From: an uncultured Bacilli bacterium
GTDB taxonomy: Bacteria; Bacillota_I; Bacilli_A; RF39; UBA660
Reading direction: 5' to 3'
Assembly (NCBI GenBank): GCA_949439935.1
Contig: CASRZA010000003.1
Coordinates: 1 to 37,699 of the forward strand
DNA length: 37,699 nucleotides
The stretch's first letter is position 1; each line of letters starts with the position of its first letter. A model generated the notes under the pieces. That model searched no databases. It was not told where the DNA came from and saw only the letters and a list, made by a program, of their open reading frames with translations. Both the position numbers and the translations under genes were made by a program. Positions 1,171 to 5,844 of the stretch are shown in pieces.

Positions 1171-1186
1171 AACCCTTAAAAGGGTT
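1171..1186 (-). terminator. Terminator of the sortase gene, overlapping its stop codon
   Basis: AACCCTT and AAGGGTT form a compact hairpin. Read on the minus strand it is followed by a T-rich tract. The TAA stop of the sortase gene (1185-1187) lies in the stem. It may also work for the converging upstream gene. Confidence 0.75.
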
Positions 1187-2825
1187 ATTTGACTAAGACG
1201 GCATGGACTACTAATCTGTTTTTCCCGTTACTTTGACAGGTCGACAGAGTAAGGATTTTATCGTTCTCTTTAATCTCTGCCCCGAAGTCGTAGATCGATC
1301 TCGATCTAAGCTTATCTACAAATGTTAAAAAATCTGTCTGAGTATCAAAATTATTATAAAGATAATCGTTAGTCGCCGCGATCGTATAGATAGAGAAAAT
1401 TCTCCACTGCATATCGCCTTTTTCAGTATTAAAAGTGATATATTGGTTCTCTGCTTTCGTATGCCAACTAGATTTTAAAGTTGCCGAAAGATTCCCGAAC
1501 ATCAACTTAGCTTTCGCAATATTGTGTCCATAAATAACCGTGTTCTGGTCCATATCATAAGCGTTGTTTCGATAGTCCATAAAGACCCAACCTAAAGAAT
1601 TCGAGTTCTTATTAAAGTCGTGATTCAAATAATAACTGTTGTTATTTCCCTGGACGACAGGGTAGTTGACAGTAGTATTATTTACAGTAAGCCATCCCAC
1701 AGTATCTGGATTCGTCTGTTTTAAAACCGAGATGACCTTCGCATAGTTCTTATAATAAGGGCTTACATAATTGTTTTTAGGTTTAGTCGTCGTAGGTGCA
1801 GTAGGTTCAGGAGACTGAGTAGTAGGAGTAGTCGTCGGCTCAGTCGGAGGGGTGGGATCCAAATATTCAAATTCCTCCAATAGATCCGATATGTCGTCGT
1901 TGATAGAATCGATCTCCGTAGAACTCATATAGATGTCATACTCGTTCAATCCATAGCCGATTATACAAGAGAATATGATGACGACGAGCATATACTTCAA
2001 AGTTGTAAAATTCAAAAGTTTCATAAAATTTTCAAATTTATATTCCTTAGTATAATCGATCTTAAACTTGATCTTATTTTGCTTTATATATTTACTCTTT
2101 TTAGCAAATTCCTCGAGGGCTAAAAAATAACTCAAATTATTTTCAGTACCCTTAATCGTAAGAGTTATACTCTTTTTCTTCGCTTCTTTTAAGTGCCTGA
2201 CTATACTTTTAATAAAGTCCATATCTATATATTCAAAATATATCGTCTTTAAATAGTTATTGATCGATAAAAACTGATCGAAATCCTTATAATCGAGATC
2301 TTTAAACTCATAATCTATGACGATCTTTCTTTTATAAAATACGTCCGAATAACTAGTAAGTTTGTTCACTCTCAAGAAATTACTGATATAGAAGACCTCG
2401 ACGCGAGTTTCTATTTTCACACCCTTAGTCGTATCTATTCTTTCCAAAAGATATGTTGGAATGGCATAAAGGTTGATATATCTTAAAGTATCGTTTTTCA
2501 AAATCGCCAAGTGCATCTCATAATCTATGCTGATGTCCGGTTTGATGATTAAATCGGTAATCGTGGGTATGTAATTCAAAAGTTCCAGTGAAGTAATTAT
2601 CAATTCCTCTTGATCGACGATCGCTTTGGTTATATTGTCATTTTTGACCATGACGTTCAAAAAACCAGCGACGAGCTTCAGATTATTCTTGAAATACTTC
2701 GTATCGAAAATCAGATCATCTTTAGATATGATATTTGTATTATTTAAGTTCTTAAACGCGTTGTTTTCGATCTTATAGCCTATAGTCAACGTATTGTCGT
2801 TTATTAAAAATTGGATCTTTTTCAT
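1185..2825 (-). CDS. srtB: Class B sortase with a large N-terminal cytoplasmic domain
   Basis: This is a membrane transpeptidase that cleaves sorting signals and attaches surface proteins to peptidoglycan. The catalytic domain is residues about 355-546: His434 in YGHNI, Cys530 in TLSTC and Arg537, the expected triad, with the WLTVNNTTVNYPVVQ-type start of class B enzymes. One membrane segment lies at about 277-293, followed by a Pro/Thr-rich linker (about 322-350) that would place the enzyme in the wall. Class B sortases are usually about 220-280 residues with an N-terminal anchor; here 276 residues precede the anchor and should be cytoplasmic, a region I cannot assign. It is transcribed divergently from two surface-protein genes, one ending in NPQTG, which suits a class B substrate. 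The start has AAGGGACGTGA upstream and a TATAAT-like element behind it. Confidence 0.92.
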   Translation of the reverse strand: MKKIQFLINDNTLTIGYKIENNAFKNLNNTNIISKDDLIFDTKYFKNNLKLVAGFLNVMVKNDNITKAIVDQEELIITSLELLNYIPTITDLIIKPDISIDYEMHLAILKNDTLRYINLYAIPTYLLERIDTTKGVKIETRVEVFYISNFLRVNKLTSYSDVFYKRKIVIDYEFKDLDYKDFDQFLSINNYLKTIYFEYIDMDFIKSIVRHLKEAKKKSITLTIKGTENNLSYFLALEEFAKKSKYIKQNKIKFKIDYTKEYKFENFMKLLNFTTLKYMLVVIIFSCIIGYGLNEYDIYMSSTEIDSINDDISDLLEEFEYLDPTPPTEPTTTPTTQSPEPTAPTTTKPKNNYVSPYYKNYAKVISVLKQTNPDTVGWLTVNNTTVNYPVVQGNNNSYYLNHDFNKNSNSLGWVFMDYRNNAYDMDQNTVIYGHNIAKAKLMFGNLSATLKSSWHTKAENQYITFNTEKGDMQWRIFSIYTIAATNDYLYNNFDTQTDFLTFVDKLRSRSIYDFGAEIKENDKILTLSTCQSNGKNRLVVHAVLVK

Positions 2826-2947: not shown

Positions 2948-3016
2948 ATGAAATCTGCGTATATTTTGCTTAAAGAAACGAATAATAAAAGAGAAAGAGG
3001 AAAGTATTATGAATAA
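2948..3016 (+). CDS. Possible 22-residue leader peptide overlapping the start of the next gene
   Basis: An ATG with GGGAGTGAT just upstream opens 22 codons (starting MKSAYILLKE) that stop at 3014-3016, inside the first codons of the InlB-repeat gene at 3009. The overlap would permit translational coupling. The downstream gene has its own good GAGGAAAG ribosome site, so the small frame may be chance. No similarity is recognised. Confidence 0.25.
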   Translation: MKSAYILLKETNNKRERGKYYE

Positions 3017-4385
3017 AATTTTAAAAGGACTAAGTGCTTTCGCAATTGCATCTGCGATTGGACTTAATACGTTGACAGTTAATGCTGCAACCACCTGTGA
3101 ACCTGGTGAAACTGAATACACAAACTATTATATGTTCCTAAACGAAGACACAGTCGATTACTTGACAAAAGGTGTAAATGAAGCACCAGCAGGTACGATA
3201 TTCGCCCTATATAATGGTGCTGATAAATATAACGACGTTCCGAACGGTAAAAAGTTAGACGATGGATACGTAAGAATTAAAAGTGGAAACAAAAGTACTA
3301 CTAATTCTAATACGAGCATCGAATGGACAGTAGCAGAATTCTGGCAGAAATACCATAAAGGATTCAATAACATGCGCAGTGACGGTTACGTCTATGAAGA
3401 CACAGTAAACCACGAATCTTACGTTTTCCATAACGAATGGTGGAAATTCGCCGATGAGACGTTTACAAACGGAACTCCGAGAGAACACGTGACTGATGCT
3501 ACGACTAAAGCCTTGCTAAACTATTTGGATAGCAACATCTCGAGCATCGCATCGTCTCCACTTGCAACGAGAGGTACAAACGTTCCAGAAACGTTTATCA
3601 CGATGCCTAACAACATCGGAAGTACCACTTCGAGTCCACTTAGATGGAACGTTGCGAGAAAAATAACGTCATCTGATCTATTAGAAGGTGTACAGATCGG
3701 TACAGGATCTAAGAAAATATGGTCTCCAGCTGCTTACTTCGTCAAATACTGTAAGGCAGATGGTGGAACGACACCTGAAAAAGAAAGAAAGATCACCTAT
3801 GATCCAAACACAACTTCTCAAGTAGCAGGAATGCCAGATCCTAATCCGTTCGTATTTAAAGATGCTTGTACAAACATCTCGACAAATACTCCTACGAGAA
3901 CAGATGGATATACATTCTTAGGATGGAGCAAAACTAAAACAGATACAAAAGGTGACCCAAAATACGCACCTAATGCACAGTACTGTGAGACTGAAGAAAA
4001 CATAACTCTTTACGCTATTTGGAAAGAAGTGGAAAAGAACGAAGATGGTTCGTATACGGTGACATACGATGCAAACGGAGGTAAAAATGCACCTTCTGCA
4101 CAAACTACACCTGACGGATCTTGTATGAACATTTCTTCTGGAAAGCCTACCTTGGCGAACAACAACTTCCTCGGATGGAGTAGAGATCCTAAGGCAAAAG
4201 AACCAGATCCAAGATATGCAGCAGGTGCAGAATACTGTGGTGCAGATGGAAACATCACTCTATACGCAGTATGGCAAGTACAATCTGGTATAAGTGCTCA
4301 CTTTATAGCATTTAGTTTGGTTGCTATAGCTGCCGCAGGAGCCCTAGTAGTTGCCCAAAGAAAAGACTTATTTAAGCAAATATAG
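3009..4385 (+). CDS. Secreted InlB-repeat (Flg_new) surface protein
   Basis: Residues 1-26 are a signal peptide ending TVNA, with cleavage likely before ATTCEPG. A domain of about 225 residues without recognised family follows, bracketed by cysteines (TTCEP near 29 and KYCKAD near 247). Two Listeria-Bacteroides (InlB B-type) repeats follow, at about 258-338 and 348-423, each with the FLGWS core and an ITLYA-W end. The C-terminus has QSGIS, a hydrophobic stretch and a QRKDLFKQI tail, the layout of a sortase signal with a degenerate motif. It is a paralogue of the next gene (same cysteine layout, YTNYY motif and repeats) and lies head-to-head with the sortase. GAGGAAAG lies 6 bases before the ATG. 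Its function is probably adhesion or surface coating, by inference from the repeat family. Confidence 0.85.
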   Translation: MNKILKGLSAFAIASAIGLNTLTVNAATTCEPGETEYTNYYMFLNEDTVDYLTKGVNEAPAGTIFALYNGADKYNDVPNGKKLDDGYVRIKSGNKSTTNSNTSIEWTVAEFWQKYHKGFNNMRSDGYVYEDTVNHESYVFHNEWWKFADETFTNGTPREHVTDATTKALLNYLDSNISSIASSPLATRGTNVPETFITMPNNIGSTTSSPLRWNVARKITSSDLLEGVQIGTGSKKIWSPAAYFVKYCKADGGTTPEKERKITYDPNTTSQVAGMPDPNPFVFKDACTNISTNTPTRTDGYTFLGWSKTKTDTKGDPKYAPNAQYCETEENITLYAIWKEVEKNEDGSYTVTYDANGGKNAPSAQTTPDGSCMNISSGKPTLANNNFLGWSRDPKAKEPDPRYAAGAEYCGADGNITLYAVWQVQSGISAHFIAFSLVAIAAAGALVVAQRKDLFKQI

Positions 4386-4485: not shown

Positions 4486-5844
4486 ATGAAAAATTATTTA
4501 AAGTCACTAGCAGTTGGAGCTTTAGCTTTGACGATCGGATTAGGAACAGTGGAGGCAGCGACAGCAACGCAAAAAATAAATACAAATGCATGTGAAACTG
4601 TCTATACAAATTACTATTTCTTCTTAGATGCAAACACAGAAAGCTTTTTTAACAAAAGCGAATTATCACAAATTACACACAATACAGTAGCAGAATACAA
4701 AAATAACTCTTATCAAATAAGAAATTTTGATGCTTATAACATCGGATATGGAGAAGTCGATGTAGCGAGAACTACTACAACTTCTAAAGATGGTATAACT
4801 TCTATGTCTTTGAGCGATTTCTACGACATCGCTTTGAGAGCTTCTAGAACGAGTGGAGGATCATTCACACAAGGTGCGAACAACTATATCTTCGCTCACG
4901 ATTGGTATAGTGTCAACTCAAACGGAACAGCAAACAAAGAACCTGGTTCTCTAAATATTTCGAGCTTGACAAGAAATCAACTTATGAACGCAACAGTAGA
5001 TGCGATTACTACTATGACTAGAGAGTCTAGTGTAAATCCAAGTGCACCAAATCCATTTATCATAAAAGTTTTTAGAAACTATTATGGATATTTGACTGGA
5101 AAGCCAGCTAAAGTAGGTAACTACAATTGGTATTTCCATCCAGCAGTATATTACATACAATATTGTTCTACAAAACAAGATGAACCTGAACAAAAAGAAT
5201 ACAGAATCAATTATCATGAAAACGGTTCAAACGTAACTAATATGCCAAAGAACGAATGGGCTTATGAAGGAGAATGTTTGACTATTTCAAGTAAAGTACC
5301 AAAAAGACCTGGTTATAAATTCTTAGGTTGGTCTGAATCTTCTAAAAAGTTGGAAGATCCTTGGTATAAAGGCGATAGATACTGCGGTAAATATGGAGAC
5401 TTAGACCTATACGCTATATGGGAAAGAGAATCTTATCCAGTAAATCCTTCTATAGAGTATTACAACGTCTACTACAAGCCAAATACGACAGATGTCGTCA
5501 CAGGAATGCCTTCAGATAATAAAGACATACCTAACGATAGAGATGTTTACATCGCATCCAACGTTCCAGTTAGAGCAGGATTCACATTTGTAGGATGGGG
5601 ATTGACTAAAGATACTACTATTCCAGACTACAAAGGTAACGATCTTTACTCAGATAGAAAAGATTTAACTCTATATGCTATATGGGAAAAGAATCCCGAT
5701 CCAATAAAACCTGATCCAAAACCAGAACCTCCAGATAATCCTCAAACTGGTATAGAAGACTTCTTCGTACCTCTAGGTGGAGTAGCTTTGGTTGCAGGAC
5801 TTGGACTAAAATACATGAAAAAACGAATTTATGACAACTTATAA
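4486..5844 (+). CDS. Secreted InlB-repeat surface protein with NPQTG sorting signal
   Basis: Signal peptide residues 1-25 (cleavage near VEAA). The N-terminal domain resembles that of the preceding gene (CETVYTNYYFFL against CEPGETEYTNYYMFL) and is closed by IQYCS. Two InlB-type repeats follow (about 240-315 and 322-405), each with FLGWS or FVGWG and a LYAIW end. The C-terminus has a Pro/Asp/Lys-rich stalk, then NPQTG, then a hydrophobic stretch and MKKRIYDNL: a complete cell-wall sorting signal. NPQTG resembles known class B sortase motifs (NPQTN, NPKTG), and a class B sortase is encoded about 1.7 kb away. The ribosome site is GGGTGG before the ATG; a promoter and a downstream terminator make it its own unit. 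The ligand is unknown. Confidence 0.9.
   Translation: MKNYLKSLAVGALALTIGLGTVEAATATQKINTNACETVYTNYYFFLDANTESFFNKSELSQITHNTVAEYKNNSYQIRNFDAYNIGYGEVDVARTTTTSKDGITSMSLSDFYDIALRASRTSGGSFTQGANNYIFAHDWYSVNSNGTANKEPGSLNISSLTRNQLMNATVDAITTMTRESSVNPSAPNPFIIKVFRNYYGYLTGKPAKVGNYNWYFHPAVYYIQYCSTKQDEPEQKEYRINYHENGSNVTNMPKNEWAYEGECLTISSKVPKRPGYKFLGWSESSKKLEDPWYKGDRYCGKYGDLDLYAIWERESYPVNPSIEYYNVYYKPNTTDVVTGMPSDNKDIPNDRDVYIASNVPVRAGFTFVGWGLTKDTTIPDYKGNDLYSDRKDLTLYAIWEKNPDPIKPDPKPEPPDNPQTGIEDFFVPLGGVALVAGLGLKYMKKRIYDNL

Follow-up and report, generated by a model that had tools for sequence, protein, structure and literature searches.

A class B sortase with an LRR-like predicted cytoplasmic domain in uncultured Bacilli and the conserved tails of proteins encoded beside it

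The window, the whole stretch of 37,699 nucleotides analysed here, carries a gene for a predicted class B sortase in which a large domain with an LRR-like predicted fold precedes the membrane helix. Sortases are enzymes that fix proteins to the cell exterior. What is new here is the presence of an NPxTG signal with a conserved cytoplasmic tail in the neighbours of such fused sortases, and together the fusion and the shared inner tail suggest that cargo is chosen from both sides of the membrane. We favor, at a probability of about 0.4, the reading of the protein as a class B sortase of type II (N-in) in which the LRR-like cytoplasmic domain serves as a substrate adaptor. The features of the locus are as follows.

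1185..2825, minus strand: class B sortase gene with a large, predicted cytoplasmic N-terminal domain (546 aa, protein P0001; open reading frame with an ATG start)
1998..2825, minus strand: predicted cytoplasmic N-terminal domain, residues 1-276 (AlphaFold2, Foldseek, internal repeat)
1938..2015, minus strand: single predicted transmembrane helix, residues ~271-296 (hydropathy in 35 relatives; N-in by the positive-inside rule)
1773..1937, minus strand: predicted extracytoplasmic helical stalk (to ~320) and Pro/Thr-rich disordered linker, residues 297-351 (full-length model)
1188..1748, minus strand: sortase B catalytic domain, residues 360-546 (Pfam, NCBIfam, Foldseek)
1524-1526, 1236-1238 and 1215-1217, minus strand: predicted catalytic residues His434, Cys530 and Arg537, invariant in 35 relatives
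3009..4385, plus strand: divergent partner gene for a secreted protein of 458 aa with Listeria-Bacteroides (Flg_new) repeats (Pfam) and a sorting-signal-like end at 4278-4382
4486..5844, plus strand: second secreted protein with Flg_new repeats, 452 aa, with the signal NPQTG...KKRIYDNL at 5737-5841

The sequence AAGGGA is seen upstream of the sortase start codon. The original prediction of a class B enzyme was borne out by the NCBIfam profile TIGR03064 for this class, whose cut-off of 153.75 bits was exceeded with 160.2 bits, by a Pfam PF04203 match of 53.9 bits to residues 379-545, and by Foldseek, which placed the catalytic domain with Staphylococcus aureus SrtB (1ng5, E=5.4e-20, TMt 0.79), the top matches all being SrtB structures. 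The protein is thus a class B sortase by profile and fold, with predicted activity. It has in common with SrtB (TIGR03064; PDB 1ng5, 4lfd) the catalytic domain, the His/Cys/Arg triad, a single N-in membrane helix and, in its putative substrates, signals of the NPxT type, but it differs by a folded domain of about 270 residues ahead of the membrane helix, and the linked signals here are NPxTG with a conserved C-terminal tail. The substrate motif of S. aureus SrtB is NPQTN (PMC3297441).

The membrane anchor had been placed at residues 277-293, with all that precedes it in the cytoplasm, and both statements agree with our analysis. The best 19-residue hydrophobic window covers residues 271-289, and in the full-length model, which keeps the fold of the N-terminal domain, a continuous helix (267-320) forms the membrane helix and the stalk, followed by a linker (321-351) with pLDDT below 50. 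One main hydrophobic segment was found at a similar position in 35/35 aligned full-length relatives, and K/R residues are richer on its N-terminal side in most of them. Since the sortase is necessarily outside and there is one membrane segment, the N-terminal domain should therefore lie inside, a topology that is strongly indicated.

The alternating strand and helix character that had been read from residues 1-276 reappeared in the AlphaFold2 model of the domain, built on 35 aligned relatives (mean pLDDT 87.1, pTM 0.75). The predicted fold consists of a beta-hairpin (2-19) and an irregular LRR-like beta/alpha solenoid, with short strands at 67, 91, 116, 137, 167, 194, 221 and 253 and helices between them. 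As had also been anticipated, searches of Pfam, NCBIfam and PDB sequences gave no significant family match for these residues. With Foldseek, no PDB match fell below E=1e-3 (best E=2.6e-3); the best-ranked ones were mostly LRR proteins (leiomodin, Skp2, NLRPs), weak and with TM values of 0.25-0.31, and viral LRR proteins were found with E-values down to 4e-5. An internal repeat (108-141 versus 185-222) was detected by hhalign with E=9e-4 and beat 60/60 column shuffles. The domain resembles LRR proteins (RNI/tropomodulin-like, BspA-like) in its predicted short strands alternating with helices and in a repeat of ~21-32 residues with N-x-x-L-K-x-I pieces, but the TM values are only ~0.25-0.31 and the window protein has no LRR profile match, with LRR_R13L1-DRL21 found in 1 of 35 relatives at E=0.09. 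We therefore call it LRR-like rather than LRR, and its kinship of fold to LRR proteins is putative. N154, N189 and N266 are the only invariant residues inside the domain and look structural.

The fusion is real, with chance excluded by its conservation across genomes. The full fusion is present in 8 of the 9 genomes of the genus, with 58-76% identity in the 7 others and ~30-45% across the family. Within the genus the dN of the domain is 0.17-0.29; dS is saturated, so that dN/dS cannot be computed. Full-length fusions were found in 67/193 sampled genomes and 48/148 genera of the same GTDB family, using an alignment as query for the scan of genome contigs (a single-protein query gave nothing); most genera of the family are without the domain, and no fusion turned up outside the family among 395 genomes sampled from the class and 392 from the phylum. 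Relatives thus do keep the fusion, and the domain without a sortase is almost absent, the exceptions being contig ends, the shortened forms L124 and L125 and one protein of genome G273. The latter is the one case of the domain on its own, and it keeps the membrane helix (G273:C31:12063-12869; L219:1501-2384 approx.; 294 aa, no sortase), in a genome with a full fusion elsewhere. The shortened forms (L124:51-1154 and L125:5348-6322) are sortases in which just the final 70-85 residues of the domain remain. Possible pseudogenes, sortase-like frames interrupted by stops within the aligned stretch, were seen in G066:C31, G076:C54, G062:C10, G142:C12, G030:C10 and G193:C139. The order RF39 retains peptidoglycan genes, and its sister orders RFN20 and ML615J-28 are without srtA/B (PMC10868615).

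In the window, a pair of Flg_new genes begins 183 nt from the sortase start and runs in the opposite direction. The protein of the second one (4486..5844) scored 17.6 bits with the NCBIfam LPXTG_anchor profile, above the cut-off, in addition to its Pfam Flg_new repeats, and is a likely candidate substrate of the sortase. The first one ends with VQSGISAHF...AQRKDLFKQI, in which Ser replaces the usual Thr. Its congener at locus L003 has the same divergent position and a similar tail, SADTG...KKKDLFKQI. Poor cleavage or retention in the membrane may be the consequence of VQSG at 4278-4382 compared with xxTG in the congeners.

The divergent neighbours of the relatives encode proteins of 176-485 aa in which NPxTG and a membrane helix lead up to a terminal K-x-Y-[KHQR]-[IV]-COOH. 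A sorting-signal gene, nearly always divergent, lies within 500 nt of 72/112 distinct fused sortases, a count to be read with the facts that the detector misses the genes of the query genus itself and that many of the other loci have little flank; at some fully flanked fused loci (e.g., L055, L057 and L090) there is no signal within 500 nt. The linked signals are mostly NPxTG. We compared them with those of class B sortase loci without the domain, many of which come from genomes that also have the fusion. The neighbours of these canonical sortases carry NPxT[SGNL]D signals and tails like KKLINN or KKKIN. A D after the TxG/TxS motif was found in 1/72 fused versus 19/20 canonical cases (Fisher 2e-17), a hydrophobic last residue in 69/72 versus 5/20 (Fisher 2e-10), and Y/F/H/P at position -3 in 58/72 versus 1/20 (Fisher 6e-10), the loci of all three comparisons being phylogenetically non-independent. 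A third signal type, VPxTG/S with tails KKTIKEC or KNGKEN, was observed at 1.3-2.4 kb from the sortases in one genome group (L060, L061, L062, L063, L064, L075 and L115).

The 193 family genomes were searched with the A3 profile, built from 33 linked signals, and matches with E of at most 1e-5 were counted as strong. Strong NPxTG/KxYxI signals were present in 43/67 genomes with the fusion versus 2/126 without it (p=3e-23), and one of the latter two genomes is 64% complete. As read from the coordinates, about 25 strong signals are either distant from the sortase or on a different contig, and the complete genome G101 has three unlinked genes with an NxxTG signal and a K-Phi-[YR]-[KR]-Phi tail. 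For six genera the sample held one fused and one unfused genome; the strong signal was only in the fused member in 5/6 and in neither in 1/6. Loss of the linked pair in a single event could account for part of the co-occurrence. No strong signal was found in 24/67 fused genomes, and the tails of the query genus deviate (DLFKQI, KRIYDNL), the query's own genome giving no match to the A3 profile. Distances between domains and between tails showed a rank correlation of 0.74 over 67 pairs that were not corrected for phylogeny, and a partial correlation of 0.62 given the catalytic domain; the corresponding values are lower for the membrane segment (0.37) and the motif (0.38). This correlation is suggestive only, because the domain and the catalytic domain share one gene tree, and the partial values may in part reflect rate or resolution. 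The tail is not exclusive to the fusion, as weaker FKKI, FRKI and KFKNI tails after NPxTG occur in the unfused genomes G155, G147 and G118. Nor do unfused genomes with such tails hide a truncated domain; their sortases show none.

In our favored reading, the substrate, once exported by Sec, would stay held in the membrane, its C-terminal tail reaching into the cytoplasm. Binding of this K-x-Y-[KHQR]-[IV]-COOH tail by the LRR-like domain would place NPxTG at the active site across the membrane, where Cys530 would cleave between T and G and pass the protein on to the cell wall. In this way the lineage would keep NPxTG substrates separate from the NPxTxD ones of its canonical class B sortases. 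More tentatively, substrates may be recognised on both faces of the membrane, NPxTG outside by the catalytic domain and KxYKI-COOH inside by the LRR-like domain, which would give two parallel class B codes per cell; the catalytic domain may also account by itself for the difference between NPxTG and NPxTxD. Descriptions of sorting signals usually treat the cytoplasmic tail as nothing more than a positively charged stop. If the domain reads the tail, the latter would be a second, cytoplasmic code for sorting specificity, and the fusion gives a view of cell-surface sorting in a widespread lineage of uncultured Bacilli with reduced genomes.

Tail and domain share one face of the membrane, their genes are linked and their distributions match. 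Reading of the tail by the domain is the simplest account. The main rival, which we regard as rather unlikely, is that the domain acts as a module for localisation or scaffolding and links the sortase to a partner in the cytoplasm or the membrane (Sec translocon, divisome, cell-wall synthesis), the tails being read by something else or merely serving as a hold in the membrane. LRR-like solenoids are general surfaces for protein binding, which would suit such a module, as would the related tails found without the fusion. A precedent is the class E sortase SrtE1 of Streptomyces coelicolor, whose cytoplasmic extension, ~100-200 aa long and bearing both acidic and basic patches, is required in vivo and was suggested by its authors to contact other proteins; according to the same paper, hardly any other sortase type has such an extension (PMC5148588). 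Both proteins have their extension at the N-terminus, ahead of the membrane helix, but that of the window is not of the SrtE1 type, since its catalytic domain is class B rather than class E and its extension is predicted to be folded and LRR-like rather than acidic and basic. Positively charged cytoplasmic segments also affect the localisation and distribution of Enterococcus faecalis sortases, according to Kline (2009) as cited in PMC4829219; as far as that citation goes, the cytoplasmic part matters there too, with a short charged segment where the window protein has a large domain. A scaffold role leaves unexplained both the concentration of signals with KxYxI tails in fused genomes and the differing tails beside canonical sortases.

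We consider it improbable that the domain serves only for folding, stability or chaperoning, or that it is a relic under erosion. The shortening to 70-85 residues in L124 and L125 and its absence from most genera of the family point that way, but 67 genomes retain it at full length, with 30-75% identity and low dN, and the shortened L125 is still beside an NPxTG gene with an LFKQL tail. The domain had originally been proposed to sense something inside the cell or to bind substrates or partners. Binding is the part of that proposal that best fits the neighbourhood and the co-occurrence; nothing specific came up for sensing. Gating of the sortase through the membrane helix by a cytoplasmic ligand or state would be compatible with the one continuous helix that joins the folded inner domain to the outer enzyme, but the domain has no ligand-binding family and no conserved cluster of a catalytic type, and there is no signalling gene among the conserved neighbours, which makes this the least probable of the alternatives.

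In the non-subscription literature that we searched, we found no account of a class B sortase with a folded domain in the cytoplasm. The view that the membrane anchor normally comes first in class B sortases holds broadly; nevertheless, the family includes other class B enzymes with long N-termini of low complexity, and class E enzymes have long extensions as well (PMC5148588). The former were found at L127:5152-6705, L128:5104-6543, L295:478-2010 and L306:247-1761, with cytoplasmic N-termini of 240-330 residues that are charged, contain repeats like ELPTLKKKKSLYDTVIIKLDDI and are unrelated to the LRR-like domain. In L125, with its shortened domain, the divergent NPxTG neighbour has been kept and has the tail KKRLFKQL. 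At L030, L031, L062 and L115, a gene convergent to the fused sortase encodes a membrane-type protein with ELPxLK motifs at its C-terminus. ELPxLK is also present in the low-complexity sortase N-termini of the L127 type and is possibly a shared docking motif.
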